Shown: piece by piece, positions 25,202 through 59,999 of the stretch
How the letters are laid out: each line of letters starts with the position of its first letter
How positions within the stretch are numbered: the stretch's first letter is position 1
NCBI GenBank assembly: GCA_949775045.1
Contig: OX459095.1
Span: 35,392,768 to 35,456,767, forward strand
Direction of reading: 5' to 3'
Length of the DNA: 64,000 bases
Origin: Metridium senile
Lineage: Eukaryota > Cnidaria > Anthozoa > Actiniaria > Metridiidae
The notes under the pieces: model-generated
The model's database searches: none
Told to the model about the DNA's origin: nothing
What the model saw: the letters and a program-made list of their open reading frames with translations, nothing else
Program-made: the position numbers and the translations under genes

Positions 25202-26464
25202 TTAAGAGCAATAGCAAAATCTCTTAAAAGCAGTTTTAAAATCATGCTTAAACTTTGTGAAATCTCCTGACAAACTTATTTTTTTAGTGTCTGAACTAAT
25301 TGAAGCATATCTTTTGGAAAGCGTAACTTTCCCTTTATTGGGAAAATTATTAGGGAAATGCACTATCCATTGATAATGCCGGTAGTGCTTGAATTCAAGA
25401 GACAATTCCTTTGTAGCTTTGTCTCTCTTTATGCCCACTTTGTTATCATCTGAAAATTCTTTTATGAAAGACAAAGTGTCTCGTAGAATATCTGGGTTGT
25501 CTTCATACCATTGTAAGGGACTACGAGACACAGGAACGGTATTTTCCTGTGACTGACCTGCTGGTGGGTATCTTTGGTTTTCACTAACATTTCCATATAT
25601 CAGTGTTACTGGGTTATCTTGTTCTGTAGTTCTTGGTTGTGTATTTCGTATACGGCGTAATCCGTAGTTTCCAGAGTTGTTTTGTCTTGGTTGTTCAGGT
25701 GGGTGAGGTGTGTGAACAGACTTTGGGGAAACCACAGAAGCGTGCTGTTGATCGTAATTGGGAGATCTTTTAAGCCTTTCGGAATGGTCTTTCATAGGTG
25801 ATCGTGAGCGAGGGCGGTATCTATAACCTTCATCTTGTTTTGATTGTGTTCGACCTCTCTCATCCCGATCTCTCCTAGAGGGAAACCGACTTGCTTCCTG
25901 TCGAAATGAAGTCTCTTTACCGTCATTTATTGTTGACGTGATTAAGGAAACTTGATTGAAAGGATTTTTTGTAGAAATAATCTCAACATTCCCCGTCTGA
26001 AATGGCCTTACTCCATCAAGGAATTTGTACGGAGACAGTACAACCTTTATATCTGGAGTGATATTTGCAATCATTAGTAGAAAGCCCTGTGAGCCTGAAG
26101 GATAGTTTCGTCTTATTGTGCTACAGTCTCCACCGCTAGGTTTGTATAACTGTAGCTGGTGATGCGAGTGCCATTCTCCTATATGACACAGTGGATACTG
26201 GTTTGTTAGTAACTGTCCTACACGGCTCATGTAAGGAACATCTTGATAGAAAGATACAGCAGTTCTTCGACAGTTTTCGCCAGGGCCCGTAGCAACGAAG
26301 ACAACAGCATTACCGGAGTTTGTCCACAGTCCAAACAAGTTTCCTCCTGTCTCCTCATGTTGTACTTTACTGACCAAGGAGGCGATATTTATGAAGTCTT
26401 CTTCGAACATTCGTAAAGTGAACGTTGTGTGGTGGTTTGTCGAGCGTTGATATCGTGACTCCAT
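25202..26464 (-). CDS. JAMM/JAB isopeptidase with C-terminal E2/RWD-like domain
   Basis: A 420-residue, intron-free protein. The N-terminal JAB domain (about 15-165) has an intact metalloprotease motif: Glu38 in E-T-G-G-N-L-F-G, His99 and His101 in G-E-W-H-S-H-H, then P-S-G-G-D with Asp113. JAMM enzymes of this kind are zinc-dependent and remove or mature ubiquitin-like proteins. Residues 185-310 are a disordered Arg/Ser/Pro-rich linker. Residues 315-420 resemble the E2/RWD fold (W-Y near the start, then an I-V-H-F-P-x-x-F-P strand) without a catalytic cysteine. The same two-domain order, with a dead JAB part, recurs in the genes at 29754, 39168 and 41815. The JAB sequence is of the prokaryotic type. 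A kB-like site lies 136 bp upstream. Confidence 0.88.
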   Translation of the reverse strand: MESRYQRSTNHHTTFTLRMFEEDFINIASLVSKVQHEETGGNLFGLWTNSGNAVVFVATGPGENCRRTAVSFYQDVPYMSRVGQLLTNQYPLCHIGEWHSHHQLQLYKPSGGDCSTIRRNYPSGSQGFLLMIANITPDIKVVLSPYKFLDGVRPFQTGNVEIISTKNPFNQVSLITSTINDGKETSFRQEASRFPSRRDRDERGRTQSKQDEGYRYRPRSRSPMKDHSERLKRSPNYDQQHASVVSPKSVHTPHPPEQPRQNNSGNYGLRRIRNTQPRTTEQDNPVTLIYGNVSENQRYPPAGQSQENTVPVSRSPLQWYEDNPDILRDTLSFIKEFSDDNKVGIKRDKATKELSLEFKHYRHYQWIVHFPNNFPNKGKVTLSKRYASISSDTKKISLSGDFTKFKHDFKTAFKRFCYCS

Positions 26465-26599
26465 TGCTAATCTAATTCACTCGAACGATGAGCGAAGCAA
26501 ACAACTGTTACACGGAAGACTGATGAAAATCGATTCCGGGAATAAACAGTGGCACCCATGCGCAATGGGTTGTTTTGCTTCTCGGAAGCCTATGGATTC

Positions 26600-26610
26600 G
26601 GGGATTCCCC
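26600..26610. promoter_or_regulatory. NF-kB-like site upstream of JAMM gene 25202
   Basis: GGGGATTCCCC, a perfect half-site palindrome, 136 bp before the start codon. It sits in a block (ttgttttgcttctcggaagc) also found upstream of the JAMM gene at 49262. Confidence 0.6.
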
Positions 26611-27353
26611 CTTGAAAGTGATGTCATGATCACGCCATGACCTTGTGATATATAATGAAAATAATGACTTTAGTCAAAGAGTAAATGCACTTTTATTTTA
26701 ATAATTTAATCATTGTGATTTAAAAAGTATCCAATATATATACAAATAATAATAATAATAATAATGTATTGTATTCCAATAATTATCGATGCCCTTACAA
26801 ATTGATTAAAGAATAAATTGCTATCAATATAGGAATTAAAGGTATTAATGATTATTTACAAATAGCCTATCTATTGCATGAATAACTATCTGTTATTCAT
26901 GCATATACAAGTAATTAATATAAAATCAACTCGAAATTCAATTCAGTGTTAATGGTAGATGAATTAAAACAAAATGGTCTTCAAAGAACTGGTTTCCTTA
27001 ATTGTCAACTAATTTGTAAAAAACAATAGGTAATATTATATTGTTTGTAATTTGTTACTGACATTTCTAGCTTTAGCCCTTCGTCGGAGTAAAAGTTAAT
27101 TTGTCATTTGCGGTATCTCTGCTAGTTTACAAATTATTTTCTGTTTGTTTCTTGGATGGTTAGTTCATTTGTCCGTTTTATGTTAATGTATATGCACAAT
27201 GACTTGTATTAATATTGATTATCTTTTGCCAATATGACGAACGTACTCTTTGCTCAAGTTGATTTCCATTGATACCCGATTTTTTTTATCTGAAACTTTC
27301 TCACTTACAGTATTAGTAACACAATGGTTTTTATTATCAATTAGACTTTTTTT
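26611..27353. other. Intergenic, nothing recognised
   Basis: AT-rich sequence between two JAMM genes, with a short (aat)n run near 26745. No gene or repeat is supported. Confidence 0.5.
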
Positions 27354-28097
27354 TCATTTAGGTAAGGAAGGTTTATGTTCTTGAGCAGTTATACATTGTG
27401 GTTTGTTTTGGTTGTTTCTTCTTGGTTCTTGCCTGTTTTTTCCTCTTTTCTTCTTACTTGATCTTCTCTCGCTGTGTTGATTCTCTTCATGTTGCTGTAG
27501 CATATGTCCAGTACTTGGTGGCTCTGCACCGTCAATCAACTCTTTTCTCATTTTTTGACGGAAAGGACTTTGAGTTCCCTTAAGAAGCTTAAACCTTCCT
27601 TTCGTAACTTCATTATCATAAGTAGAGTAACTTGGAGAATAAGTCTCAAAAAAGAAAGAGCCTATTTCGACGTTTTCTTGACGCAAAGGCTTCGAAATAT
27701 TTGCAATAAAAAGGAAAAATCTGTGGATTCCATATCGACGCATATTTGTCCAAACAGTGTTCTCATCTCCACCGCTTGGCCTGGTCAGACCGAGTGTGTG
27801 ATGTGAGTGCCATTCTCCGATATGACAAAGACCTTCTTTGGTGGTCAACAGGTTACCAACACGTTCAAGGTATTCCACATCTTGGTAGAAAGAAGCTCCA
27901 GTTCTGTGACAACCTTTTCCTGGTCCAAGTACAAGTTGTACTACTGCAGTATTCTCGTCTAACCACAAGCCAAACAGATCACCTCCTGTCTCAAGGTGTG
28001 GAAACATGGCAGTCCATGCTTGTATTTGGTGATATTCGGACTCGTAGATGAACACACAGTAGCTATCAAGTTCAGTGCTGTCCCGATGAGCTGCCAT
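27354..28097 (-). CDS. JAMM/JAB isopeptidase, short form
   Basis: A 247-residue protein if begun at M-A-A-H-R-D (28097). An earlier in-frame Met at 28139 adds 14 residues with no counterpart in the paralogues, so I take the later one. The JAB domain fills residues 12-160: Glu36 (E-T-G-G-D-L-F-G-L-W), His97/His99 (H-S-H-H) and Asp111 (P-S-G-G-D). An S-P-F-R-Q motif follows, shared by all short-form paralogues, and then a basic Lys/Arg/Gln-rich tail that could be a nuclear localisation signal or RNA-binding. It lacks the RWD-like domain of the 25202 protein. A kB-like site lies 245 bp upstream. Confidence 0.88.
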   Translation of the reverse strand: MAAHRDSTELDSYCVFIYESEYHQIQAWTAMFPHLETGGDLFGLWLDENTAVVQLVLGPGKGCHRTGASFYQDVEYLERVGNLLTTKEGLCHIGEWHSHHTLGLTRPSGGDENTVWTNMRRYGIHRFFLFIANISKPLRQENVEIGSFFFETYSPSYSTYDNEVTKGRFKLLKGTQSPFRQKMRKELIDGAEPPSTGHMLQQHEENQHSERRSSKKKRGKNRQEPRRNNQNKPQCITAQEHKPSLPK

Positions 28098-28341
28098 TCT
28101 TGTGATATAATTCTTGTAATACTTAATATATATGTTCAAGATGGTAAAATAAAGAGTTGCCGTTGATTTTAGTAAGTTGTTTTATAAAATATCTATCTAG
28201 CAATTTCCTTAAACGAAAGTGGGCTTAACCTCGTGAACCGGAAATGGAATTAATATCAAACAGGTTATTTTTAAATTTCGTGGAAACTCAGGATGTTTTT
28301 CAGCTGAATTAATAAGTAATAAAGTTGTTGACACTGAATTT

Positions 28342-28352
28342 GGGGGTTCCCC
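28342..28352. promoter_or_regulatory. NF-kB-like site upstream of JAMM gene 27354
   Basis: GGGGGTTCCCC, 245 bp before the start codon chosen here. Confidence 0.5.
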
Positions 28353-29139: not shown

Positions 29140-29580
29140 TTACATTTCTCTCAAATATTGGCTGATGGATTTTCCAGTTCGTTTATGGGCTTCGTATGCT
29201 TCGAGCCAAAGGAAACCTTTCATATATACCTGATACAACGTGTATTCATTTGTCCATAGTTCTTGTCGAAAGTGACATATTTTGACGAGTCCATTTTTGG
29301 TGCCGTATGTATGATCAAGAGCTGACATTGAGCCAAGTTCTGCTCCGTCTTTTTTCCTGAGTGTTTTTGGGGACGCTACGGTTAGTTCTGGACATGAATT
29401 AGGGTAGTCTGAGGGAAGATATATCCTCAGTGTATAGTGATTATCGCTGCTTGTAGCCATGTTCAAATCCACTGATGTATCTTCTTTTTGATTTGTCCAG
29501 CTTAATTTATCTCCAAAGTACGAGTCAAGAATTTCCTTTTCAAAGCCTAACCGTTTCTGCTGGCTTACTGACCAAGGCAT
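29140..29580 (-). CDS. E2-like ubiquitin-conjugating protein, prokaryotic type (E2-1)
   Basis: A 146-residue, single-exon protein starting M-P-W-S. It shows the E2 order of elements. There is an N-terminal helix with K-R-L-x-F-E-K-E-I-L. Strands follow, leading to the Y-P-N-S-C-P-E-L turn (the family's Y-P-x-x-P-P). The active-site region is H-T-Y-G-x-x-x-G-L-V-K-I-C-H-F with probable catalytic Cys102. The C-terminal helices are E-L-W-T-N-E-Y-T-L-Y then W-L-E-A-Y-E-A-H. The downstream W-L-x-x-Y-E-x-x-x-x-T-G pattern matches the bacterial Prok-E2 families better than eukaryotic UBC proteins, which have H-P-N before the Cys. It is transcribed divergently from the pseudo-JAB gene at 29754 across 173 bp. 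Confidence 0.85.
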   Translation of the reverse strand: MPWSVSQQKRLGFEKEILDSYFGDKLSWTNQKEDTSVDLNMATSSDNHYTLRIYLPSDYPNSCPELTVASPKTLRKKDGAELGSMSALDHTYGTKNGLVKICHFRQELWTNEYTLYQVYMKGFLWLEAYEAHKRTGKSISQYLREM

Positions 29581-29753: not shown

Positions 29754-30659
29754 ATGGCAAGTGTTGCAAAACAAATTACATGCTTAGGACTAGGAGATGA
29801 TTTTATTCTGTACATGTTTAAAGACGACATCGATATGTTTAAACAATTCAAGCAAGAATCTCGAGGAATACTGCGAGGACTTTGGACAAACACTCGCAAT
29901 CCTGTTGTACACATCGTACATCTACAAGAAAAATTCCCAGAACCATACAAAGCCCTAAATAGCTACCAGTGGAAAGATAAAACAAACCTTGAAAAAGTAG
30001 CTCCAAAGATAGGATATTGGTCTTTCGGCAAAAGTTTGGATGAAAATCTTCAACTTGTGGAAGGCGATGAGGTTGTTTATCTTGACGTAACCGAAAGTGA
30101 TGGAGCTCTGACTTTTAATCCGTTTCGTTACTCAAAAGGAAAACTTTGCCACGGACAAATAGAAGCATTATCTCGAGAAAATCCATTTAAACTTTCAGAA
30201 AATGAACTGAGATTGAATGTAGAAGATTCGAGTGAGAAAAGTGATGGAAACCTTGTTACAAATCTAATCAACTTTTTTGACAACAAATTAGAACAAGGCC
30301 TCCAATGGTGTGAATCTTTTTCTACGGAAAAGACAAAGTCGAACCAGTGGTATTTGAGCGACAGAGGCAACAAGCTTCTTAATCAAATCTACGAAATCCT
30401 TAATGGCGCCACAGACAACACGGCACAAATAAAAAGAGATGAGCAGACCTTGGGCGTTTTTCTCGTCTTCACATTTAATGGCAATAAAGCTGTAATTAAC
30501 TTTCCGGAACATTTTCGTTATAATGTTCCTGCAACACTTTATAAGATGGACACAAATAATTATATGCAAGAAGTGGGGAAAATAAAACACGAAGAACCAA
30601 AAAGACTAGTTGAAAACATTATCAATGCTTTGTCCGACACTAGAAATAGAACGTATTGA
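29754..30659 (+). CDS. Pseudo-JAB protein with E2/RWD-like C-terminus (single exon)
   Basis: 301 residues. The N-terminal 120 residues follow the JAB outline (R-G-I-L-R-G-L-W-T-N for the E-T-G-G-x-L-F-G-L-W strand and I-G-Y-W-S-F for I-G-E-W-H-S-H). The catalytic Glu, both His and the Asp are gone, so it should not cleave. An N-P-F-K-L-S motif matches the S-P-F-R-Q/N-P-F motif that follows the JAB domain in the active paralogues. Residues 195-301 are the E2/RWD-like part: Q-W-Y, then I-N-F-P-E-H-F, no catalytic Cys. It probably acts as an adaptor or modifier-binding partner of the enzymes beside it (inference). It shares a divergent promoter with E2-1. Confidence 0.78.
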   Translation: MASVAKQITCLGLGDDFILYMFKDDIDMFKQFKQESRGILRGLWTNTRNPVVHIVHLQEKFPEPYKALNSYQWKDKTNLEKVAPKIGYWSFGKSLDENLQLVEGDEVVYLDVTESDGALTFNPFRYSKGKLCHGQIEALSRENPFKLSENELRLNVEDSSEKSDGNLVTNLINFFDNKLEQGLQWCESFSTEKTKSNQWYLSDRGNKLLNQIYEILNGATDNTAQIKRDEQTLGVFLVFTFNGNKAVINFPEHFRYNVPATLYKMDTNNYMQEVGKIKHEEPKRLVENIINALSDTRNRTY

Positions 30660-31674: not shown

Positions 31675-32910
31675 ATGCATCAACCAGACGATCTAGTCTT
31701 GTGCTTAATGCAGCCAGATTTTATTGGTCTTTTAAGAACCACTGAATGCCCGAGTTTTACAGTCAGATCACTCGATGACGGAGAAGTTCTTCACATCACG
31801 GTATCCTCTGAACCTCAAACAGAATCCACTAAGAACCAAGTCGCTTTTAAGTTCCTAGAAACCTTCCCTGATGATGGCGTCCAAACAGACCAAATTCTCG
31901 ATGAAATCTTTGGAATATTTGAAGAGAGTGAAAGTTTCCAGATCGCATTGCTTATAAATCCAGATGACAAAGTAAAAGCATTCGTCAAGAAGACATCCTC
32001 TGATCCACCAAACCATACTAAAGTGTTGTCGAATCCTTCCAAAGATCTCCTTTATTCAAGAAGTAAAGGGTTACTGGAGTCAGGTTTGCTTGAAGAACGC
32101 AAGGTTGCTATAATAGGACTTGGTAGTGGTGGCTCTACCGTGGCTATTGAATTAGCAAAGGCTGGTGTTGGACACTTTGTTCTCGTGGACTATGATCGAA
32201 TCGAACTGAACAATATTATCCGTCATACATGTGGGGTTAAAGACCTTGGCAGACTAAAGACTAAAGCCATTCGTGATCGTATTCTGGATAAAAACCCGTT
32301 CGCCGAGGTTGAAATACACAATGGCGATATTAATGATCAAGCGAATGCAAGAAAGATTCTAGCAGGCTGTGACCTTATTATCGCTGCTACAGATAACATA
32401 CGAAGCCGTTTAAACATCAATACCGTTTCGCTGGAAATAAACATTCCTGTCCTGTACGGTAAATGTGCTGTTAGAGCTGCAGGTGGTGAAGTAGTGATGA
32501 TAAGACCAAACAAAGGACCCTGCTTTAGCTGTGTCTACAAAAACGCTCTCATTGAAGCAAACAAGGAAGAAGTTTCGTCGTTTCGACAAGCAAGAGAAGC
32601 CAATCCAAGCTATGTCCCTGACAATGAGGTAGAAGCCACCATTCAAGTAGGTCTGTCATCAGACATCATTCCAATCAGTAATATGATAGTCAAGATTGCT
32701 CTAGTGGAGTTATGCAGAGGTAAAGACAGTGCCTTGTCTTCGTTGGAGAATGATTTTAAAAGTGCTTACTACATGTGGGCTAATCGTCGAGAAGGTCAGT
32801 ACGAGTCGTATCCCGTCGATGGGTTTGACAAGTTCAATCTGCCGAGTATACTGAGATGGTATCCAATGGAAGTGAACAAAGATGACAAGTGTAAAGCTTG
32901 TAGTCTTTAA
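31675..32910 (+). CDS. E1-like ubiquitin-activating protein, ThiF/MoeB family
   Basis: 411 residues, intron-free. Residues 1-125 form an N-terminal domain I do not recognise. Residues 140-400 are a ThiF-type adenylating domain: the nucleotide loop is I-I-G-L-G-S-G-G-S (146-154), D-Y-D-R-I-E-L-N-N (172-180) with Arg183, R-L-K-T-K (193-197) and A-A-T-D-N with Asp240. Two Cys pairs, C283-x-x-C286 and C406-x-x-C409, form the structural zinc site typical of ThiF/MoeB and prokaryotic E1s. It should adenylate the C-terminus of a small modifier and pass it to an E2. Cys186 or Cys264 might carry the thioester (inference). Eukaryotic UBA1-type second-half domains are absent, so this is not a host E1. 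It is the only E1 in the window, set between the E2/JAMM genes. Confidence 0.92.
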   Translation: MHQPDDLVLCLMQPDFIGLLRTTECPSFTVRSLDDGEVLHITVSSEPQTESTKNQVAFKFLETFPDDGVQTDQILDEIFGIFEESESFQIALLINPDDKVKAFVKKTSSDPPNHTKVLSNPSKDLLYSRSKGLLESGLLEERKVAIIGLGSGGSTVAIELAKAGVGHFVLVDYDRIELNNIIRHTCGVKDLGRLKTKAIRDRILDKNPFAEVEIHNGDINDQANARKILAGCDLIIAATDNIRSRLNINTVSLEINIPVLYGKCAVRAAGGEVVMIRPNKGPCFSCVYKNALIEANKEEVSSFRQAREANPSYVPDNEVEATIQVGLSSDIIPISNMIVKIALVELCRGKDSALSSLENDFKSAYYMWANRREGQYESYPVDGFDKFNLPSILRWYPMEVNKDDKCKACSL

Positions 32911-34032: not shown

Positions 34033-34233
34033 TCAATCCTTGTGAAAGAATCCTCCCGCTCCAGGTTTATTCATGTCCAACATGACTCTTCGATCTGCTC
34101 CGCTTTGCTGCTGTCTTTGAGTTGTTGCTTTACTTTGTACTGTAAGTTTACCAGTCGCAGGATCAAACACCATAGTCTCACTGCCGCTTGGACTTTCCAT
34201 AAACTTTTCGATTTTCTGCTTTTGCGAGCTCAT
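34033..34233 (-). CDS. Short protein family A, copy 1 (candidate modifier)
   Basis: A 66-residue protein starting M-S-S-Q-K. I choose this Met (34233) because the copy at 56975 has no equivalent of the upstream Met. It is polar and probably disordered, with a T-M-V-F-D-x-x-T-G-K-L-T-V core and a C-terminus G-A-G-G-F-F-H-K-D. The V-F-D-x-x-(S/T)-G-x-L core and a G-F-F near the end are shared with family B. A Gly-Gly followed by a few residues is what a ubiquitin-like precursor presents to its processing peptidase. It is not a beta-grasp protein as far as I can see, so a modifier role is inference. A kB-like site and a CRE lie about 90 and 117 bp upstream. Confidence 0.7.
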   Translation of the reverse strand: MSSQKQKIEKFMESPSGSETMVFDPATGKLTVQSKATTQRQQQSGADRRVMLDMNKPGAGGFFHKD

Positions 34234-34644: not shown

Positions 34645-35781
34645 CTATTTCTTGTTTGAGCATAACAAATTCATCACAAAATCACATGAGGATTTGTTAT
34701 TTTTCTCGTCTTCTTCAGTTGTTTGGTCTAGAATACGATTATTCATTTCTTGGTCTTGGTCTTGGTCTTGGTCTTGGTCTTGGTCTTGGTCTTGGTCTTG
34801 GTCTTGGTCTTGGTCTTGGTCTTGGTCTGCAATTTGATTCCTTTCTTTTTCGAGCACACAACCTGATGTACTATTGTCGAGGTCATCAGAAGTCATTCCT
34901 TCGACTGCACCTAGTGGATTAGAGTACAAACTTAAATGGTCATTACATACACCTTTAGTATTTGTATGTTGATCATTGCTTGGAGTTAAGTTATTTTGAG
35001 TTAAATTTATGTCACTTTGCTCTTTTGTGTCATCATTACAGGAATACGATTGTCTATCTCGTTGGTCTTCATTTATGACCAAAGACGTCGAATGCCTTTC
35101 ACTATTTTTATCCTCCTCGTATGAAACCCGACTCTCCTTGATAGTAGAGCTTTCTTTCATACCATGTGCACTGATACTTTGGTCAATATTTGGCTTAAAG
35201 TAATCTAGATTTTCTTGGAGATTCTCTACTTGAGATCCAATGGCCAACATATGTTTCAGTTTTTGTCGAAAGGGACTTAGTTCTTCTATGTAGGCAAATT
35301 CACCTTTATTCATTAATCTTCTTCTCTTGGTAGTCGTTTGAAAGAAAAAAGCGTTCACTCTACAAGTTTTGTATTTACGGCTTATCGTAGCGATAAAAAG
35401 ACAAAATCTGTGGATTCCATATCGACGCATATTTGTCCAAACAGTGTTCTCATCACCACCGCTTGGCCTGGTCAGACCGATTGTGTGATGCGAGTGCCAT
35501 TCTCCGATATGACAAAGACCTTCTTTGGTAGTCAACTGGTTACCAACACGTTCAAGGTATTCTACATCTTGGTAGAAAGAAGCTACAGTTCTGTGACAAC
35601 CCTTCCCTGGTCCAAGTACAAGTTGTACTACTGCAGTATTCTCGTCAAACCACAAGCCAAATAGATCACCTCCTGTCTCAAGGTTTGAAGACTTGGCCGT
35701 CCATGCTTGTATTTGACGATATTCGGACTCGTAGATCAAAACTTTGAAGCTTTTCGATTCTACAAACATTTCATTAGACAT
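34645..35781 (-). CDS. JAMM/JAB isopeptidase with long acidic tail (copy 1)
   Basis: 378 residues if begun at M-S-N-E-M (35781). A Met 18 codons upstream (35835) is open here but not in the mirrored copy. The JAB domain carries Glu35, His96/His98 and Asp110, followed by E-L-S-P-F-R-Q. The long tail is polar and disordered, contains L-Y-S-N-P and E-G-M-T-S-D-D-L-D-N-x-x-S-G-C-V-L-E-K-E shared with the gene at 55482, and then a run of Asp-Gln dipeptides absent from that copy. The tail rather than the enzyme domain is what diverges, so targets or partners may differ. Confidence 0.87.
   Translation of the reverse strand: MSNEMFVESKSFKVLIYESEYRQIQAWTAKSSNLETGGDLFGLWFDENTAVVQLVLGPGKGCHRTVASFYQDVEYLERVGNQLTTKEGLCHIGEWHSHHTIGLTRPSGGDENTVWTNMRRYGIHRFCLFIATISRKYKTCRVNAFFFQTTTKRRRLMNKGEFAYIEELSPFRQKLKHMLAIGSQVENLQENLDYFKPNIDQSISAHGMKESSTIKESRVSYEEDKNSERHSTSLVINEDQRDRQSYSCNDDTKEQSDINLTQNNLTPSNDQHTNTKGVCNDHLSLYSNPLGAVEGMTSDDLDNSTSGCVLEKERNQIADQDQDQDQDQDQDQDQDQDQDQDQDQEMNNRILDQTTEEDEKNNKSSCDFVMNLLCSNKK
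34750..34830. repeat. Coding hexanucleotide repeat (Asp-Gln)n
   Basis: About 13 tandem tggtct units (gaccaa on the coding strand) encode alternating Asp and Gln in the JAMM tail. The mirrored gene at 55482 has a single Asp-Gln at this place. Confidence 0.92.
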
Positions 35782-35996
35782 TGTTCCGGTTGTAAGAGGT
35801 CGTTGTGTTTGTCCGTCATGTATATTATTTGACATTTGTTTTGAGAAAATTTCTGGTAAAGCAATTTCCCAGTAATGTAACGCACATTGTCACGCTCTGG
35901 AATTTGCAGAGTTGCAAATTTAATTTTGTCAGTAGAAATAGTGGAAATGGAGGTGATGAAATAGTATAATAAACAAATTAAACGCAAGGCCTTTTT

Positions 35997-36960: not shown

Positions 36961-37326
36961 ATGAAAATTCAAAGCCGACAAATCACTTTTCGTGATAGAG
37001 AAGGAGGAAGAGAAGAAGGAGAAGGAGGGAAGGAGGAGGAGGAGAAAAAGGGAAAGATGAGGCGGAGGAGGAGGAGGAGAAGGGAAGGAGAAGAAGGAGG
37101 AGGAAGAACAAGAAGAGGAGAATCAACCACTCAAAGCCATGACAGCGAAATACCAAGGGATTCTGATTCAACTTTAGATGAGGTACCAAGAAACGAGAGA
37201 AAAGGTTCACAGGAAGAATTAGTCTTTGATGAGGACACTGGTCAACTTGTAGTCAAGAAACAGACAAAACGACCAGTAGCTTCTAAAACTGTATTGACTG
37301 GAATCGCTACAAGTGGATTCTTCTAG
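36961..37326 (+). CDS. Short protein family B, copy 1 (candidate modifier)
   Basis: 121 residues. A basic start (M-K-I-Q-S-R-Q) is followed by about 50 residues of Glu/Gly/Arg/Lys low complexity from a GGA/AGA repeat that is much shorter in the other two copies. Then comes the conserved part: S-Q-E-E-L-V-F-D-E-D-T-G-Q-L, a Lys-rich stretch and the C-terminus A-T-S-G-F-F. The conserved part is about 40 residues and has the V-F-D-x-x-(S/T)-G-x-L core of family A. The very C-terminal G-F-F is unchanged in all three B copies, which suggests the end itself is functional. Confidence 0.7.
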   Translation: MKIQSRQITFRDREGGREEGEGGKEEEEKKGKMRRRRRRRREGEEGGGRTRRGESTTQSHDSEIPRDSDSTLDEVPRNERKGSQEELVFDEDTGQLVVKKQTKRPVASKTVLTGIATSGFF

Positions 37327-39167: not shown

Positions 39168-40980
39168 ATGACGACAACGATAACAATCCACCGTGGAGAA
39201 ATCTCGATTGTTCAAAGAATATTTCGACAAACTAAAGACAAGCATAAAAGAAAGTTAACTGGCTCTTTGTATGGTCTTCAAGCGGAATCCGGTCAACCAA
39301 TAGTTCTATTGATATGTGGAGGCAAGAAAGAGAAGCACTTACGAGTTTGCCAAGAGTACTTAAAAAGCAAACATGGACTTAATCAATTGGGGAGATGGCT
39401 TGTATTTGACGACGAAGGCAAGTGTTTTTACAATAGTGCGCGGCACAACACTTCGTAGGACAGTGACATTCCTTTAAACAATATGTAGAAATCAAACAAC
39501 ATTGCTGTTTGATATTTGGCTTTGGGTAAGAGAACCACTCAGTATATACATAAAAAGCGAAATAACATAACATAGATTTGTCATTTAATTGGGCTTATTT
39601 TAGTCTGACGTTTGCTTGAAAACAACAAATCATTATCAGTATTCTAAGCTTTTTTTTCTTTGTTCAGGATCATCTTTGAAATCCATTTCTAAAGGAAGAA
39701 TATCTTTGGTGTTTGATATGAATGGGAATTTGTCTACTGCATACGACGCTGAAGGCCATGGAGCTAATCTTGGTAGGTAGTTTTTTAATTATTTGTAATT
39801 ACTGCTTGTGAAACGCTTGAAGGCTTGATAGTTAGTTATGTCGAGCCTTGGCCAAAATAACTTCGTTGTATTGTGTTCTTTTAAAATAAGCTTAATTAAG
39901 ACAGTTAACTCTTACAGTGCCTCTTTGTTTACCAAGGTGTGTATATGGATTCAAATTGTTGGGTTGAAATCCTGACAAAGCTGGACTAGCATCTCACTCA
40001 AGCCCTCAAGGAGGGTAGAAATACTAACCGGCGCCGACAAGCCAATGTGCTTTTTTAATGTAACGGAATTACCTTAACTGCTATTTCCTAATAGTTGTTT
40101 TTGTTATTTAGAAATCCTAGGTGGAAACAGTGCTTTGAGATTATACAAACCGCTTACGGAAAAACTTTGCAAGGTACTGAAAACCGATAGCTCACCCGTT
40201 CATGATGTTGTGGAAAGAAAAGTCGATGATGACATAAAACCGAGCGATTACACAAACAAAGCATCGCCTAAAGATAATCGCAGACCATACCAAGATGATT
40301 ATGACAGATCATCAAGCAATAATGAAAGATATCAAAGACAAACTTTGTACCGTGACAACCAAACTTCATACAGCGTCCGGGAAATATCTAAGAAAGGGGA
40401 GTCACGCGGTAAACAAGACGTGGTACACCATAGCTATTCATATCCGACTAAAGACAGATCTGTCAGGCCTTGCCAGGATGACTACCGAAGAATACCGAAA
40501 AGCGGGGACAGCAGACGATATACAGCGCAAGACTCGAGGTCGAGAGCCGATGAAATATGCCACAATAGTAGTGCGGTTAACCCCTATATGAATGACAACC
40601 ACGACGCTTATAACCACACATCAAAATGTCAGTGGTACAATACAGATAGGCAACTTTTAGCTGAGTTGCTTAAGCTCATTGGTGGCTTTAGTCCGCGTAG
40701 TTCACCTGAAATATCAAGAAACTCTACAACTGAGAACATGTCGATTCTATTCACCTATCGTGAACACTATTGGGTTATCGAATTCCCATCGACATTTCCT
40801 CTCGGAGAAACTAAAGTCTTAAAAATGTATGCCGATGGAGATCGAGCTCATGCAAGAGTTGAGAGGTTCGAGTGTGACTCTGAGTTTGTTAACTTGCAGA
40901 TCATTAAAGATAGAATTAGCCAAGCAGTAAGAATTCTAGAATCTCCTCGGCCTAGTTACCAATATGAAACATATCTGTAA
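39168..40980 (+). CDS. Pseudo-JAB protein with E2/RWD-like C-terminus, three exons
   Basis: Exon 1 39168-39417, exon 2 39668-39772, exon 3 40112-40980, all phase 1; total 407 residues. The first intron uses a GC donor (GAAG then GCAAGT). It is supported because exon 1 is then exactly 250 nt, as in the paralogue at 41815. Exon 1 encodes a JAB-like core (G-S-L-Y-G-L-Q, L-N-Q-L-G-R-W) without His-x-His or the acidic metal ligands. Exon 3 starts with an L-R-L-Y-K-P-L segment, then a long charged disordered region rich in Arg, Asp and Ser. It ends in an E2/RWD-like domain (Q-W-Y, V-I-E-F-P-S-T-F-P) with no catalytic Cys. A regulatory or adaptor role is inferred. Confidence 0.8.
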
Positions 40981-49261: not shown

Positions 49262-50062
49262 TTATCCCAACATGCAGATTAAACAACAATAACAATGCAG
49301 TCTTTGACAAAGTTTCAGAAGTGAGTTAGTCTCTACTATTTCTTGCTGCTCACTTTCGTTCTCAACCGGATTAACAAGTGCATTATCATGTTTTGGTTGT
49401 TTCAATGTTGTGGAATTCGTAGAGAACCATTCTAATTCTTTCTCATTGTTCAAACATTCTGCTCCTTTACTGATTTCGTTTTCATTTGACAGCCTAAATG
49501 GACTTTGCTCACAAATTTTTTCATATTTGCTATGCAGCAATGGCAGCCGTTTGCAGCCGTTTTCGCGTTGTGTTCGGAAAAGGTAGCCGTCTATATTAAC
49601 GTTGTGCACAGCCTTTCCATATGATGACCAATTTGAATCAATGGTGGCAATAAAAAGACAGAATCTGTGGATTCCATATCGATCCATATTTGTCCAAACC
49701 GTGTTCTCATCTCCACCGCTTGGCCTGGTCAGACCGAGTGTGTGATGCGAGTGCCATTCTCCGATATGACAAAGACCTTCTTTGGTGGTCAACTGGTTAC
49801 CAACACGGTCAAGGTATTCTACATCTTGGTAGAAAGAAGCTACAGTTCTGTGACAACCCTTCCCTGGTCCAAGTACAAGTTGTACTACTGCAGTATTCTC
49901 GTCTAACCACAAGCCAAACAGATCACCTCCTGTCTCAAGGTTTGGAAACTTGGCCGTCCATGCTTGTATTTGACGATATTCGGACTCGTAGATCAAAACT
50001 TTGAATTCCGAATTACTTTGGAATATTTTAGTTTTTTCTTTCTTTTTTTTTCGTCGAGTCAT
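49262..50062 (-). CDS. JAMM/JAB isopeptidase with basic N-terminus
   Basis: 266 residues. A basic start (T-R-R-K-K-K-K-E-K-T-K), a possible nuclear localisation signal, precedes the JAB domain with Glu43, His104/His106 and Asp118. After the domain come a short insert (G-C-K-R-L-P-L-L-H) and the S-P-F-R motif, then a polar tail ending in a Cys/Leu-rich segment (C-Q-R-L-H-C-Y-C-C-L-I-C). No RWD-like domain is present. The upstream kB-like site (146 bp) and the ttgttttgcttctcggaagc block match those of the JAMM gene at 25202. Confidence 0.87.
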   Translation of the reverse strand: MTRRKKKKEKTKIFQSNSEFKVLIYESEYRQIQAWTAKFPNLETGGDLFGLWLDENTAVVQLVLGPGKGCHRTVASFYQDVEYLDRVGNQLTTKEGLCHIGEWHSHHTLGLTRPSGGDENTVWTNMDRYGIHRFCLFIATIDSNWSSYGKAVHNVNIDGYLFRTQRENGCKRLPLLHSKYEKICEQSPFRLSNENEISKGAECLNNEKELEWFSTNSTTLKQPKHDNALVNPVENESEQQEIVETNSLLKLCQRLHCYCCLICMLG

Positions 50063-52405: not shown

Positions 52406-53062
52406 GTTAAAAGTGACGATAAGCTGATACATGATACATGATGAATTTTTCAATTGTATTAATTATTATTTTCATTTTGTTTTTCAGTTCTGCATGTTTT
52501 AATGACTTTCATTATCTTAGAGTACAGTATGCAGTGATTTTATGTATACATAAAAAACGATAAGATTGGTGAATAAAGTTCATGTCTTATAATATCAAGC
52601 ATTCTAATTTGCATTGTTTTGACTTGGAATAAAGTCACTTCAAACAAAGTGCCTTCGTAAACAAAGTCAGTGATAATAAAGTTCATTAATTGTCTCCATT
52701 TACAGCCGTTTTACCCGAAGCAATGACTGTACTAGAAGAATCCACTTGTAGCGATTGCAGTCAATACAGTTTTAGAAGCAACTGGTCGTTTTGTCTGTTT
52801 CTTGGCTACAAGTTGTCCACTGTCCTCATCAAAGACTAATTCTTCCTGTGAACCTTTTCTCTGGTTTCTTGGAGCCTCATCCGAAGTTGAATCAGAATCC
52901 CTTGGAGTTTCGCTTTGATAGTGTCGAGGGTTTGATCCTCCTCCTCCTCCTCCTCTGCCACGAAAGGGAATCCGTTGTCTTTGGTTTTCCATCGCTTTAA
53001 AAGATAAATGATGATCTTGTTTCAATTTACTTGGACGAAAACAGCTTTATACGGCAACACTG
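52406..53062. repeat. Direct duplication containing peptide B2
   Basis: Almost identical to 59347-59999. Homology begins at ttaaaagtgacgataagctg and ends at acggcaacactgg, before the kB-like site. Confidence 0.92.
52732..52992 (-). CDS. Short protein family B, copy 2 (candidate modifier)
   Basis: 86 residues starting M-E-N-Q-R-Q-R. I use this Met (52992) because it aligns with the start of copy B1; an earlier one at 53025 adds 11 residues. A short Gly run replaces the long Glu/Gly/Arg region of B1. The C-terminal part is conserved: E-E-L-V-F-D-E-D-S-G-Q-L-V-A-K-K and the end A-T-S-G-F-F. It is predicted disordered and basic. It is driven by a promoter with GGGGTTTCCCC 107 bp upstream. Confidence 0.72.
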   Translation of the reverse strand: MENQRQRIPFRGRGGGGGGSNPRHYQSETPRDSDSTSDEAPRNQRKGSQEELVFDEDSGQLVAKKQTKRPVASKTVLTAIATSGFF

Positions 53063-53330: not shown

Positions 53331-53780
53331 TTACATCTCGCTAAGGAACGACGCCATTGGTTTCCCTGTTCTCAGATGAGCTTCATATGCTTCAACCCAT
53401 ATCAAACCTTTCATAAAGACTTGATATAAAGTCAAGTCAGTAGTCCAAAGCTCTGCACGATGATGGCAAATCTTAGTAAATCCATTCAATGAACCCCATG
53501 AGTGATCAGCGTGGCCAACATCACCACCGTCTTTCTTTTTTAAAAGTTTTGAAGGATTTGATACTATTAGATTAGGACAACTGTTTGGAAAATCATCGGG
53601 GATGAGTACTCGAAGTGAGTATTTCTTGTTGCCTGTTGTAAACACATCTACTTCGACTTCCGCTGGTTGACCACTAGATGCAGTTGGATTAATCCATCTC
53701 AAACGGTCGTCAGGAAAATACATTTGTAGTATTCCTTTTTCGAAATCAAGTCGTTTTCTTTGATATTGAGAGAAAGGCAT
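53331..53780 (-). CDS. E2-like ubiquitin-conjugating protein, prokaryotic type (E2-2)
   Basis: 149 residues starting M-P-F-S. The E2 elements in order are the helix K-R-L-D-F-E-K-G-I-L, the F-P-N-S-C-P-N-L turn, H-S-W-G-x-x-x-G-F-T-K-I-C-H-H with probable catalytic Cys105, and E-L-W-T-T-D-L-T-L-Y then W-V-E-A-Y-E-A-H-L-R-T-G. It ends just after the helix, like E2-1. It is head-to-head with E2-3, 160 bp between start codons. The three E2s differ mostly in the surface strands before the active site, which would suit different substrates or E1/adaptor partners (inference). Confidence 0.85.
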   Translation of the reverse strand: MPFSQYQRKRLDFEKGILQMYFPDDRLRWINPTASSGQPAEVEVDVFTTGNKKYSLRVLIPDDFPNSCPNLIVSNPSKLLKKKDGGDVGHADHSWGSLNGFTKICHHRAELWTTDLTLYQVFMKGLIWVEAYEAHLRTGKPMASFLSEM

Positions 53781-53940
53781 GTTATATTCGACGTTTGACT
53801 TATCAATTTAATAAATCCAAAAATGTTTATCTTCACTGTTTACGTCATCATAATTCTGGGAAATAGCATTATACCTTAAGGCCCACCAGTAAATGTTCAT
53901 TGATTGGTGGAACAGGGATCCGTTATTCACTGTATTCAAC
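53781..53940. promoter_or_regulatory. Bidirectional promoter between E2-2 and E2-3
   Basis: 160 bp between divergent starts. It contains a CRE-like TTACGTCA (53840-53847) and a STAT-like TTCTGGGAA (53854-53862) side by side. There is no full kB palindrome. Confidence 0.55.
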
Positions 53941-54552
53941 ATGCCTTGGACTGATGGTCAGACGAAAAGATTTGCCAAAGAGGAACAAATATTGAAGGAT
54001 TATTTTCCAAACAATGTTAAATGGTTCAATCGAGATAACATGAAAGTCGAGATAAAAATGACATCAAACAGCAACAAGTCGTACACACTTCGAGTATGTA
54101 TTCCTCAAGACTATCCCAATTCATGTCCAGAATTGTATGTATGTAATCCAGCCAGACCTCTCAAAGATATTCATGGCAATGAGATTGATTGTGGAACTGA
54201 CAATCATAGTTATGGAACCAAAAATGGACTGACTTCAATCTGCCATTTTGTTCCTTATATGTGGTCAAATGAGTACACTCTATACCAAGTGTTTATGAAG
54301 GGAAGAATCTGGCTAGAGGCGTACGAGATACACCTTCGTACAGGAAACCCCATGAAAACCTACCTCAGAGAGATGCAGAGTAATATCCCTATAGAGGAGA
54401 TGTTATCTGCTGCGATATTTGAAGGAATCCTTGCAGGTTTAGTAGAACAAGAGAGAGCAGGCACTTCCAGCTCAAGTACAGAACAACGACCACAATTACC
54501 AACAGGCAATACCAACGATAACAAATCGAAAGGATATTGTTCACTCATGTAA
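53941..54552 (+). CDS. E2-like ubiquitin-conjugating protein with C-terminal CaaX box (E2-3)
   Basis: 203 residues if begun at M-P-W-T-D (53941), which aligns with the other E2 starts. A Met 16 codons earlier has no counterpart. The E2 core is residues 1-145: Y-P-N-S-C-P-E-L, H-S-Y-G-T-K-N-G-L-T-S-I-C-H-F with probable catalytic Cys101, and W-S-N-E-Y-T-L-Y then W-L-E-A-Y-E-I-H-L-R-T-G. Unlike E2-1 and E2-2 it has a 55-residue extension: a short helix (E-E-M-L-S-A-A-I-F), a Ser/Thr/Asn-rich spacer and the end G-Y-C-S-L-M. C-S-L-M is a CaaX motif of the farnesyl type, so the protein may be membrane-anchored. Confidence 0.87.
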   Translation: MPWTDGQTKRFAKEEQILKDYFPNNVKWFNRDNMKVEIKMTSNSNKSYTLRVCIPQDYPNSCPELYVCNPARPLKDIHGNEIDCGTDNHSYGTKNGLTSICHFVPYMWSNEYTLYQVFMKGRIWLEAYEIHLRTGNPMKTYLREMQSNIPIEEMLSAAIFEGILAGLVEQERAGTSSSSTEQRPQLPTGNTNDNKSKGYCSLM

Positions 54553-55481: not shown

Positions 55482-56567
55482 ATGTCTAATGAAATTTGTG
55501 GAGAATGGACTAGCTTCAAAGTTTTGATCTACGAGTCCGAATATCGTCAAATACAAGCATGGACGGCCAAGTCTCCAAACCTTGAGACAGGAGGTGATCT
55601 GTTTGGCTTGTGGTTAGACGAGAATACTGCAGTAGTACAACTTGTACTTGGACCAGGGAAGGGTTGTCACAGAACTGCATTTTCTTTCTACCAAGATGTA
55701 GAATACCTTGAACGTGTTGGTAACCAGTTGACCACCAAAGAAGGTCTTTGTCATATCGGAGAATGGCACTCGCATCACACACTCGGTCTGACCAGGCCAA
55801 GCGGTGGAGATGAGAACACTGTTTGGACAAATATTCATCGATATGGAATCCACAGATTCTGTCTTTTTATCGCTACGATAAGCCGTAATTACAAAACTTG
55901 TAATGTGAACGCTTTTTTCTTTCAAACCACTACTAAGGGAAGAAGATTAATGAATGAAGGGGAATTTGCCTACATAGAAGAACTAAGTCCCTTTCGACAA
56001 AAACTGAACCATATGTTGCCCATTGGATCTCAATTACAGAATTCCCAAAATGATTTAGATATGTTCGAGCAAAATGTGAACCAAAACATCAGAACACGTT
56101 ATGTTAAAGAAAGCTCTAAAAGTAAAGATAGGGTTCGATATGAGAAGAATGGAAATAGTCAAAGGGATCTGGTCATAAATAAAAACCAAACAGATAAGCA
56201 GGAATCGAATTCAAATAAAGAGCAAAGAGAAATAAATGCAACACTGAAGATCGTTAGTTCAGCCAATGATCAACATAGGATAACACAAGAAAGAGCTTTT
56301 GAAGGATCTGTTCCTACGCGTGAAACAAATAGTAACTATAAATGTAATAATATAAGTTTATACTCCAACCCACAAGGTATCGATCGAGATGAGGAAATTA
56401 CTTCTTATGACCTTGACAATACTGTATCAGGTTGTGTACTCGAAAAAGAATGGAATCATATTGCAGATCAAGATTTTGAAATGAAGAATGTTGTTTCAGA
56501 TCAAAAACCCTCAGAAGACAAGAAAGGCCAAAACTCGAATTGTCAATTGTTGAGTTTGTTTTGCTAA
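55482..56567 (+). CDS. JAMM/JAB isopeptidase with long polar tail (copy 2)
   Basis: 361 residues starting M-S-N-E-I-C. JAB domain: Glu35 in L-E-T-G-G-D-L-F-G-L-W, His96/His98 in G-E-W-H-S-H-H-T-L-G-L, and Ser107/Asp110 in R-P-S-G-G-D. The E-L-S-P-F-R-Q motif follows. The polar tail shares L-Y-S-N-P and S-G-C-V-L-E-K-E with the mirrored copy at 34645 but lacks its Asp-Gln run. The spacing between the second His and the Ser is eight residues rather than the usual seven, as in all five paralogues here. It lies downstream of E2-3 on the same strand. Confidence 0.89.
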   Translation: MSNEICGEWTSFKVLIYESEYRQIQAWTAKSPNLETGGDLFGLWLDENTAVVQLVLGPGKGCHRTAFSFYQDVEYLERVGNQLTTKEGLCHIGEWHSHHTLGLTRPSGGDENTVWTNIHRYGIHRFCLFIATISRNYKTCNVNAFFFQTTTKGRRLMNEGEFAYIEELSPFRQKLNHMLPIGSQLQNSQNDLDMFEQNVNQNIRTRYVKESSKSKDRVRYEKNGNSQRDLVINKNQTDKQESNSNKEQREINATLKIVSSANDQHRITQERAFEGSVPTRETNSNYKCNNISLYSNPQGIDRDEEITSYDLDNTVSGCVLEKEWNHIADQDFEMKNVVSDQKPSEDKKGQNSNCQLLSLFC

Positions 56568-56885: not shown

Positions 56886-56974
56886 GAATTCTCAGAACTT
56901 ATCAACTTGCTAATTCAAATCATTCAGTATTCTTTGTGGCGTTGAACATCTACACGAGTCAAATAAAAGATACA

Positions 56975-57175
56975 ATGAGTTCGCAAAAGAAAAAAATCGA
57001 AAAGTTTATGGAAAGTCCAAGCGGCAGTGAGACTATGGTGTTTGATCCTGCGACTGGTAAACTGACAGTACAAAATAAAGCAACAACTCAAAGTCAACAG
57101 CAAAGCGGAGCAGATCGAAGAGTCATGTTGGACATGAATAAACCTGGAGCGGGAGGATTCTTTCACAAGGATTGA
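56975..57175 (+). CDS. Short protein family A, copy 2 (candidate modifier)
   Basis: 66 residues starting M-S-S-Q-K-K-K. It differs from copy A1 at only a few positions in the Gln/Thr-rich middle. The core T-M-V-F-D-P-A-T-G-K-L-T-V and the C-terminus G-A-G-G-F-F-H-K-D are unchanged. The frame is open upstream, but the matching segment of copy A1 uses different start possibilities, so the shared Met is preferred. The conserved end after Gly-Gly could be removed by a neighbouring JAMM enzyme (inference). Confidence 0.72.
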   Translation: MSSQKKKIEKFMESPSGSETMVFDPATGKLTVQNKATTQSQQQSGADRRVMLDMNKPGAGGFFHKD

Positions 57176-57360
57176 AAACAATATGAACACATTTGAGATA
57201 AGAACTTTAATTTTACCTGCAAACTGTATATATCACCGTTTATGACTGATCAAGTATATTAACAAGCACATTAACAGACTACTGCCACTGAACTACTGAT
57301 GTTGATTTGAAAGGACCATATCATAACAATGTCTTCCTGTAAACTGTTTATCCATCTATC

Positions 57361-58400: not shown

Positions 58401-58562
58401 ATGGCTAGTTCAACTGCTCTTTCTGAAGAAGATAAACCCGGTGCTTCGCTTTTAGGCCAAAAACCTTCAATACTGAAGACAGATGAATTACGTTTTTGGC
58501 TTAAATGTAGAGGAGATCGAGGCAAAGGCTTAAAAACAAAGGCTCAATTGGTCAAGAGTTGA
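58401..58562 (+). pseudogene. SAP-like N-terminal fragment of a transposon-associated protein
   Basis: 53 codons starting M-A-S-S-T-A-L-S-E-E-D. The part E-L-R-F-W-L-K-C-R-G-D then G-K-G-L-K-T-K-A-Q-L-V-K matches the SAP-type N-terminus seen on many SWIM/YqaJ or transposase-linked proteins in invertebrates. It stops just after the motif with no splice donor, so it is probably a stranded first exon or relic. Confidence 0.55.
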
Positions 58563-58919
58563 GTGTCGCTTCTCGCGAAAAGTGGCACAACTACTTGTTA
58601 TGGTCATATAACACAAACACGTACAACCAAAATATGCTATGAATAAATCGATAACAAGAGAAGAAATACCGACATCCTTTTCAGACTTTAGAGTGTGGAC
58701 TGTGGATTTGTTTGCGACAACGATTTTTGAAATAGGTGTATATAAAGTTATTGTATTGTAAATATATTCTTAATTATTCTTAAAATTGTAAATAATTATG
58801 TAATTCAGCTTTTGGGCTGCAAATAATTTAAATAAACTATTTATTTATTTATATTGTATAAAACAATTTTCATACATTAAACCTTTCTGTTTTCATAAAA
58901 CTGTTAAAATGGTGATTTC

Positions 58920-59220
58920 AATAAATGTTAAAAATGGTGATTTTTATTTTAATGTGATGGTAATAATTGTAGTGGTAGTGATAATAATATGCTGATGATC
59001 ATGCTATGTTAGTGGAAAAAGTGGTAATGATGATGATGGAGATAATGTTAATAATGATATAAATGATGATGATGATAATGATAATAAAGATGATAGTGAT
59101 GAAGGTGTTAATAATAAAATGATAATAATATAATAGTAATAATAATGGTGATGATAATAATAACGCTGATAAAAGTGTTTAGTGGAGATAAATAATAAAT
59201 AGTATAATGGTATATAGTTC
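58920..59220. repeat. Imperfect (GAT/AAT)n microsatellite
   Basis: About 300 bp of gatgat/aataat units. The reverse frames are poly Ser/Leu/Tyr and not genes. Confidence 0.85.
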
Positions 59221-59346
59221 ATATATAGATGATGTACTCTTGTCCGAGTTAAATTTACTCATATAAGGGAGTCATTTTACTCTCATAAATTTTAGTCTGC
59301 TTGGTAGAGTAAATTTAACTCCAATACTAGAGTGAATTCAACTCCC

Positions 59347-59999
59347 TGTTAAAAGTGACGATAAGCTGATACATGATACATGATGAATTTTTCAATTGTA
59401 TTAATTATTATTTTCATTTTGTATTTCAGTTCTGCATGTTTTAATGACTTTCATTATCTTAGAGTACAGTATGCAGTAATTTTATGTATACATAAAAAAC
59501 GTTAAGATTGGTGAATAAAGTTCATGTCTTATAATATCAAGCATTCTAATTTGAATTGTTTTGACTTGGAATAAAGTCACTTCAAACAAAGTGCCTTCGT
59601 AAACAAAGTCAGTGATAATAAAGTTCATTAATTGTCTCCATTTACAGCCGTTTTACCCGAAGCAATGACTGTACTAGAAGAATCCACTTGTAGCGATTGC
59701 AGTCAATACAGTTTTAGAAGCTACTGGTCGTTTTGTCTGTTTCTTGGCTACAAGTTGTCCACTGTCCTCATCAAAGACTAATTCTTCCTGTGAACCTTTT
59801 CTCTGGTTTCTTGGAGCCTCATCCGAAGTTGAATCAGAATCCCTTGGAGTTTCGCTTTGATAGTGTCGAGGGTTTGATCCTCCTCCTCCTCCTCTGCCAC
59901 GAAAGGGAATTCGTTGTCTTTGGTTTTCCATCGCTTTAAAAGATGAATGATGATCTTGTTTCAATTTACTTAAACGAAAACAGCTTTATACGGCAACAC
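59347..59999. repeat. Direct duplication containing peptide B3
   Basis: Copy of 52406-53062 with few differences. It stops at acggcaacactgg and is followed by unrelated satellite DNA. Confidence 0.92.
59674..59931 (-). CDS. Short protein family B, copy 3 (candidate modifier)
   Basis: 85 residues starting M-E-N-Q-R-Q-R, identical to copy B2 apart from one fewer Gly in the run. The conserved core and the S-G-F-F end are intact. The duplication that made it ended about 70 bp upstream of the start codon, so the kB-like promoter site of B1 and B2 is missing and the gene now abuts satellite DNA. It may be silent. Confidence 0.6.
   Translation of the reverse strand: MENQRQRIPFRGRGGGGGSNPRHYQSETPRDSDSTSDEAPRNQRKGSQEELVFDEDSGQLVAKKQTKRPVASKTVLTAIATSGFF

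Follow-up and report, generated by a model that had tools for sequence, protein, structure and literature searches.

How did a set of ubiquitin-like conjugation genes of bacterial type come to lie in the genome of a sea anemone, and what might it do there? We analysed a 64,000-nucleotide stretch of Metridium senile DNA (contig OX459095.1; hereafter the window), in which genes for an E1-like adenylating enzyme, E2-like proteins, JAB-family peptidases and very short proteins lie within 35 kb. The original prediction had taken this locus for a bacterial-type E1-E2-JAB set that was acquired laterally and then expanded in an animal, and both the trees of the three enzymes and the match to a bacterial operon described below bear it out. 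We consider it probable, if well short of certain, that the locus descends from a complete four-gene bacterial conjugation operon that animals took up early, whose genes remain linked and have multiplied, and whose products tag other proteins reversibly. Judged by sequence comparison, the locus is descended from that operon, and lateral transfer from bacteria into animals is well supported. Its products would carry out conjugation, and an immune role is plausible.

We gathered 39 bacterial loci, each with a relative of the window E1, and found a recurrent gene order of JAB-RWD, E2, short protein and E1; two Micromonosporaceae have the order short protein, E1, JAB, E2 instead. The JAB gene is present in 36 of the 39 loci and the E2 gene in 37. 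The short gene was found in 31 loci by a hidden Markov model (HMM) iterated on the loci and in six more, diverged, by eye; the remaining two loci start inside E1. It encodes a protein of about 60 residues (mostly 57–70), whose conserved core is a short hairpin-like stretch followed by a tail. In four of the 31 loci it is fused to the N-terminus of E1, and such a domain is present in 26 of the 120 best E1 relatives (out of 1415 matches); in 25 of these it has a GFF motif. The short ORFs (open reading frames) of the window were recognised because of this fusion in relatives.

We then trained four gene-family HMMs on these loci alone, with no animal sequence in the profiles, and searched a six-frame translation of the whole window with them. 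All four bacterial families were found within 35 kb, still linked: one E1, three E2s, five full JABs, six weaker JAB/RWD pieces and five short proteins, which end in the family pattern G-[FY]-[FA] with or without a further tail. The weaker pieces (E 6.3e-7 to 1.3e-3) make up three dead JAB-RWD genes and one extra copy of a terminal exon. Every item of the inventory first proposed by motif was recovered in this way by purely bacterial profiles. The same search gave a few marginal rows, namely two RWD exons matched by the E2 profile (0.0026 and 0.029) and three rows above E 0.2, and a control search of reversed proteins gave two matches in all, at E 0.66 and 0.93. Most of the genes are single open exons. 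They are, with HMM E-values from the bacterial families unless another source is named:

25202–26464, minus strand: JAB 1, JAMM peptidase with a C-terminal RWD-like domain (1.1e-54; JAB part 1.1e-49, RWD part 2.1e-3)
27354–28097, minus strand: JAB 2, complete JAMM motif, without RWD (3.9e-58)
29140–29580, minus strand: E2 paralogue a, 146 amino acids, active-site C-H (2.2e-46; tree; Pfam RWD 9.3e-8)
29754–30659, plus strand: D1, dead JAB-RWD gene, one exon (6.3e-7; RWD part 1.1e-5)
31675–32910, plus strand: E1, ThiF/Cap2-like adenylating enzyme, 411 amino acids, one exon (2.6e-133; PF00899 1e-35)
34033–34233, minus strand: A1, short tag candidate ending GAGGFFHKD (3.4e-6)
34645–35835, minus strand: JAB 3, complete JAMM motif, variable C-terminal half (6.8e-58; Prok-JAB 1.4e-5)
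36961–37326, plus strand: B1, short tag candidate ending ATSGFF, 121 amino acids with a long charged N-terminus (2.2e-10)
39168–40980, plus strand: D2, dead JAB-RWD gene, three predicted exons at 39168–39417, 39668–39772 and 40112–40980 (HMM; splice sites)
41815–44257, plus strand: D3, dead JAB-RWD gene, three predicted exons at 41815–42064, 42425–42511 and 43278–44257 (HMM; GT-AG introns)
44883–47495, plus strand: D4, copy of the last (RWD) exon of D3, followed by many repeats of 135 nucleotides (45 amino acids) (HMM; DNA comparison)
49262–50062, minus strand: JAB 4, complete JAMM motif (9.8e-57)
52732–52992, minus strand: B2, short tag candidate ending ATSGFF (2.9e-9)
53331–53780, minus strand: E2 paralogue b, 149 amino acids, active-site C-H (6.7e-38; tree)
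53893–54552, plus strand: E2 paralogue c, with a C-terminal extension ending CSLM (2.9e-44; sequence)
55482–56567, plus strand: JAB 5, complete JAMM motif (1e-61; PADLOC JAB 2.3e-16)
56975–57175, plus strand: A2, short tag candidate ending GAGGFFHKD (1.7e-6)
59674–59931, minus strand: B3, short tag candidate ending ATSGFF (2.6e-9)

Curated models are weak for these genes and on their own would not have revealed the set. The assignment of E1 as a ThiF protein stood up under PF00899; the JAB and E2 assignments fared less well, with the Prok-JAB cut-off reached only by JAB 3 (25.4 against 25) of the three JABs tried (JABs 1, 2 and 3), and with E2a called RWD. No NCBIfam model reached its cut-off in a scan of 10 proteins.

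The E1 has a single ThiF domain by Pfam (residues 139–295 of 411) and two CxxC pairs; the only other cysteine kept in at least 90% of 86 aligned rows lies in an RHxCG stretch. Among the matches listed, its closest relative is P0001, at 98% identity; of the named relatives, Actinostola, itself of the order Actiniaria, reaches 68–79%, Dendronephthya 55%, Desmophyllum 52% and the sponge Oscarella lobularis 46%, which makes a sea anemone the most likely host. Identity to the aligned cyanobacterial, sponge and EukProt proteins is 42–47%. In phmmer comparisons with the window E1, the cyanobacterial protein P0055 gives 381 bits and UBA5, the best eukaryotic relative of the E1 in the PDB, 61.5 bits. 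Placement inside the eukaryotic UBA, UBC or MPN families, which would have contradicted a bacterial origin, was therefore not seen, as judged by similarity: the closest named kin of E1 among the matches listed are cnidarian, sponge and cyanobacterial members of its own family, not eukaryotic UBA proteins. The Actinostola gene model P0003 begins with a dead-JAB-like stretch (by eye), in agreement with the window order of D1 then E1.

We built trees of the three enzymes from family members, without UBA, UBC or MPN rows; the cnidarian and eukaryotic labels on unnamed proteins were assigned in this analysis. A first E1 tree of 76 rows (among them 37 of the 120 listed matches, 36 of the 39 loci and Escherichia coli MoeB as outgroup) placed the animals together at 98. 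In a second, midpoint-rooted tree of 59 rows, from which 17 long branches and near-copies had been dropped, the 22 animal rows (16 cnidarian including the window, six sponge or EukProt) formed one group at 100/100. In a midpoint-rooted E2 tree of 19 of 66 matches and 31 of 37 bacterial E2s, the three window E2s and 17 of the 19 matches grouped at 100/99; the other two, P0184 and P0186, fell with Bradyrhizobium. In a JAB tree with 28 of the 36 bacterial JABs, the five window proteins clustered together at 100/97 and fell on the cyanobacterial/actinobacterial side. The trees fit one transfer of the operon and do not pin down its donor, and the E1 tree would place uptake before or near the sponge-cnidarian split. 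The EukProt transcript P0105 encodes a eukaryotic E1 of this family that groups with Oscarella (92/80) and could widen the host range.

All three window E2s retain the active-site cysteine, as do 52 of the 54 rows of the E2 tree; the cnidarian group includes the pseudo-E2s P0179 and P0182, in which it is replaced by Ser and Gly. Paralogue c agrees better with the family if its start is placed at 53941. Its CSLM end (54541–54552) is CaaX-like by eye and could be a prenylation signal, and thereby possibly a membrane anchor. E2 relatives occur in Actinia, Exaiptasia, Oculina and Acropora among the matches listed. In three other assemblies the longest contigs carrying E1 and E2 matches are of equal size (4,893, 21,515 and 425,577 bases), and from these sizes alone the two genes may be linked there.

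JAB 1 keeps the bacterial JAB-RWD architecture. All five window JABs retain the E, HSH and D of the JAMM motif, with a spacing one residue longer than the canonical HxH-x7-S. At the DNA level, JABs 2 and 4 share 363–365 nucleotides with JAB 5 at 93–97%, and JAB 3 shares 654 nucleotides with it at 91%. The ratio of nonsynonymous to synonymous substitution rates (dN/dS) in the cores is 0.41–0.54 across the six pairs of JABs 2–5, while the C-terminal halves are barely alignable in five of the six. This pattern suggests a common cutting core with diversified targeting, or else gene conversion of the core. Among the dead genes, D1 has lost both metal-binding histidines and retains E and an aligned D. 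D2 and D3 are each predicted to comprise three exons bounded by spliceosomal splice sites, some alternative sites also being open; the first donor of D2 is GC, and a GT donor at 39435 is open too. A match of D4 to a GntR model (2.4e-6) was set aside, as it falls inside the repeats. Against the PDB, the JAB-RWD profile found nothing but VPS37A, at E 0.078. Outside the 35-kb span, a fragment of JAB 1 was noticed by eye at 12620–12907 on the minus strand (VRPFQ.GNV..STKN..VSLI.STI.DGKETSFRQEAS), which the JAB profile missed.

The short proteins of the window fall into two subfamilies, A with two copies and B with three. All five end in GFF, followed by HKD or by nothing. A1 and A2 have a dN/dS of 0.17 on seven changes, and B2 and B3 of 0 on two changes. 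A profile search found 139 such proteins at E up to 10; 116 of the best 120 have the hairpin-like core and the G-[FY]-[FA] pattern, and of the four others two are truncated and two have the motif and lack the core pattern. When these proteins were divided by sequence into bacterial and animal, the 101 bacterial rows ended in GFF (79), GFA (14) or GYF (8), followed by a tail of 0 to 24 residues, and the 15 animal rows all had GFF. Thinning the bacterial rows at 80% left 46, in which the three positions of the motif have entropies of 0, 0.43 and 0.79 and the next position one of 3.6. A block of conservation that breaks off at one point ahead of a variable tail is typical of modifiers processed at their C-terminus, as in SUMO and ubiquitin precursors. 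Neither Pfam (two window copies, best E 0.1) nor the PDB (profile search, best E 0.54) gave the short protein a significant match.

Is this, then, one of the known conjugation systems? The original prediction likened the set to Bil operons and to CBASS (cyclic oligonucleotide-based antiphage signalling system), and as stated this was not supported: the source we find is a separate four-gene operon whose candidate modifier has no significant ubiquitin-like match in Pfam or the PDB, and membership in CBASS, Bil or the 6d operons of Iyer was rejected on gene content and domain architecture. There are likenesses to type II CBASS. PADLOC E1-E2 models match the window E1 (best 1.1e-31), JAB models match a window JAB (2.3e-16), and of 30 E2s no more than 10 are matched by an E2 model; these are models of what we take to be CBASS parts. 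In CBASS, too, the conjugated partner is described as lacking a beta-grasp (PMC12355090, PMC10449767), and one such partner ends in G-F-A (KPGGFA, PMC11153139). However, Cap2 is an E1-E2 fusion, whereas the window and the bacterial loci have separate E1 and E2 ORFs, a JAB with an RWD-like domain and a dedicated small partner. There is no gene for a cGAS/DncV-like nucleotidyltransferase (CD-NTase) within the four-gene core of the bacterial loci.

Bil operons likewise have four genes (modifier, E2, JAB and E1), and the Bil JAB is reported to open the modifier C-terminus (PMC11354881). BilA, however, is built of two ubiquitin-like domains with a terminal glycine, where the short protein here gave no ubiquitin-like match; BilD carries an inactive and an active adenylation domain, where the window E1 has one ThiF domain by Pfam. 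The modifiers of Bub systems carry beta-grasp domains. Bub operons resemble ours as bacterial ubiquitination-like operons, described as not having been shown to block phage (PMC13373217). Iyer type 6d shares a small protein with a C-terminal glycine, a JAB, an E1 and an E2 with its cysteine, and type 6e an RWD-like domain; 6e differs in its polyubiquitin-like protein, and 6d in the JAB-N domain at the N-terminus of its JAB and in an additional gene for a helical protein (PMC1779556). Here the JAB fold begins close to the N-terminus and is followed by the additional domain at the C-terminus, and among the compared neighbours only an NB-ARC ATPase is widely shared. None of the types 6a to 6e of PMC1779556 is described with a JAB-RWD protein and a GFF-tailed protein.

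Cap2 joins a cyclase ending in KPGGFA onto lysines, and a Cap3 orthologue was tried on the product (PMC11153139); it is also reported that type II CD-NTases are conserved in having Gly or Ala at the C-terminus, and that recombinant Cap3 cuts the isopeptide bonds of cGAS (PMC10449767). The A-type tail in the window reads KPGAGGFF. By analogy, we infer that the short protein would stand in for the CD-NTase tail, borne on a dedicated carrier, and would be a dedicated tag, trimmed and removed by JABs in a system that works in the manner of Cap2 and Cap3. Reversible tagging by a small non-ubiquitin protein, working like Cap2/Cap3 and standing outside both CBASS and Bil, is the most likely mechanism. 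First, a JAB would trim the tail of the short protein after G-F-F (G-F-A in some bacteria). The exposed C-terminus would then be adenylated by E1, as Cap2 does with the CD-NTase tail, a step suggested by the enzyme family and the tail motif. Next, the conserved E2 cysteine would accept the tag and hand it to target amines. Finally, the JABs would take it off again, and binding to E2, tag or targets may fall to the RWD-like domain and to the dead JAB-RWD genes; JABs 2–5, with a like catalytic core and mostly unrelated C-terminal halves, look as if made for different targets.

Several observations weigh against descent from one operon that works by tagging. On the enzyme side, Pfam calls E2a an RWD protein (32.7 against a cut-off of 22.8) with UQ_con under its own cut-off, the E2 profile finds only weak PDB matches (best 0.0042, FANCL), and the E1 crossover loop lacks a cysteine, which leaves the thioester step without an evident one. 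For the tag, the low entropy at the motif partly follows from the pattern by which the proteins were picked, though the rise after it does not; the motif is not strict, with KPYY and RPFF ends in six bacterial loci (by eye); the N-terminal extension of the Bradyrhizobium type lacks GFF; and the apparent absence of a beta-grasp reflects the Pfam and PDB nulls. As to the transfer, cyanobacteria are nearest to the animal E1s, but weakly (86/61, midpoint root), the E2 tree gives no resolved sister of the animal group, the matches listed included no recognisable E2 or short protein from sponges, and the JAB kin were sampled from the bacterial loci and the window, not from a protein-database search.

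In one alternative account the operon transfer is right and the short protein is not a tag, being instead a microcin C-like peptide substrate or a regulatory tail that docks on E1. MccB, which adenylates the C-terminus of a peptide (microcin C), and PaaA are E1-like enzymes that act on a small peptide, and both are among the PDB relatives of our E1 (MccB at 2.2e-12 and 4.3e-12, PaaA at 8.5e-9). The short protein is tiny and, in many cyanobacteria, fused to E1. An FF-like tail resembling its end (FFG, IFAS) also occurs in 86 of 118 listed E1s with a C-terminal CxxC, and is absent from the window E1; it is possibly a docking or self-inhibiting copy of the short-protein end. We nevertheless regard this account as unlikely. 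To our knowledge MccB and PaaA have no E2 or JAB partner, and we know of no peptide-modifying E1 that needs an E2 with a conserved cysteine plus a JAB; moreover, the sharp end of conservation past G-F-F resembles a processing site.

A somewhat more doubtful alternative is that the genes arrived by separate transfers, or belong to an ancestral eukaryotic system lost elsewhere, rather than by one early transfer of the whole operon. The long branch to the animal E1s (1.2), the weak support for their sister, the unresolved E2 sister and a patchy distribution among the matches listed all leave room for it. Set against this are the single animal E1 group at 100/100, the position of both E1 and JAB on the cyanobacterial/actinobacterial side, and the continued linkage of the genes in the window. 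That the short protein is a diverged beta-grasp modifier, and the system an ordinary Bil-like or 6d-like ubiquitin-like pathway, we judge improbable: types 6d and 6e and Bil, all of which combine a JAB, an E1 and an active or inactive E2, do use beta-grasp modifiers (PMC1779556, PMC11354881), but the Pfam and PDB searches gave no significant ubiquitin-like match, and a conserved core that is a short hairpin-like stretch and a tail, in bacterial proteins mostly of 57–70 residues, argues against the fold. Contaminating or misassembled bacterial DNA is a negligible concern, and contamination was rejected: despite the likeness to bacteria and the repeats and paralogues that could confuse an assembler, the locus has predicted introns with spliceosomal splice sites, its window has microsatellites and a reverse transcriptase, the 98% relative P0001 lies in another assembly, and the contigs that bear named cnidarian and sponge relatives measure 0.15 to 34 Mb.

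The operon, now taken as the bacterial counterpart of the anemone locus, occurs in cyanobacteria, Bacteroidota, Verrucomicrobiota, Caldisericota, Actinomycetota, Myxococcota and one Desulfovibrionaceae bin. Among the cyanobacterial carriers are Prochloron and Hormoscilla, which live as symbionts in sea squirts and sponges. Eight of the ten cyanobacterial loci (L001–L010) have a homologue of an NB-ARC ATPase close to the operon, with fragments only in L001 and L010, and an all-against-all comparison of 161 neighbours found no family common to more than five loci, this ATPase being the one that reached that number. Three Bacteroidota loci share a downstream AAA+-type protein, and a diverged copy on a Bradyrhizobium plasmid is followed by nuclease-domain and TIR genes. 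When 149 neighbours were scanned, most listed families matched one or few members, and many were ordinary; in the PADLOC scan there was no CD-NTase among the 25 of 63 matching families listed. These neighbours give suggestive hints of conflict biology.

A diverged JAB-E2-E1 version was found at two loci, L040 on the conjugative Bradyrhizobium plasmid and L042 on an IMG/VR contig. L042, the sole IMG/VR contig, was found by an E2-profile match and also carries a JAB, part of a Bradyrhizobium-type E1 and, by eye, a recombinase-like ORF. An E1 pattern scan of IMG/VR confirmed no relative, and phage records gave no match at E 1e-20. We rejected viruses as carriers of the animal version, as only L042, on a contig classed as viral, was found and it is not close to the animal genes. 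Among plasmids, one window JAB matches six records (32–36% identity), and E1 P0055 matches two Bradyrhizobium records.

Elsewhere in the window, a duplicated block (138–4300 and 16440–20400, also 9731–12308 and 21149–24101) encodes two kinds of proteins of about 350 amino acids, helical by eye, in copies that are 91–98% alike with dN/dS of 0.48–0.58. They reach no Pfam cut-off, and their best PADLOC match is DpdH at E 0.0038; it is possible that they are partners of the conjugation system. The reverse transcriptase, identified by eye, lies between 717-nucleotide inverted arms that are 99% complementary (5130–9666).

Our literature searches found no account of this operon or of its animal copies, which is weak evidence of novelty, most subscription papers lying outside their coverage. 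Eukaryotes are already known to have received single bacterial immune genes; in this case four components of an operon seem to have travelled jointly and kept their linkage. For the TIR genes of Dictyostelium, a 2026 preprint reports no other operon components (PMC13142454). A 2025 review named Cap2 as the sole system then known to activate a non-beta-grasp protein and noted that others may await discovery (PMC12355090). We tentatively suggest, as a possibility that still falls short of being probable, that the present operon is a second such pathway, with a GFF/GFA tag of non-ubiquitin fold and bacterial origin, which passed whole into early animals and developed in sea anemones into an immune system with several tags and several proteases. 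Being small, the bacterial operon lends itself to work in laboratory strains, and the E2 is present in the model anemone Exaiptasia. If the short protein is indeed conjugated, a ubiquitin fold is not a requirement for the small tags of E1-E2-JAB cascades.

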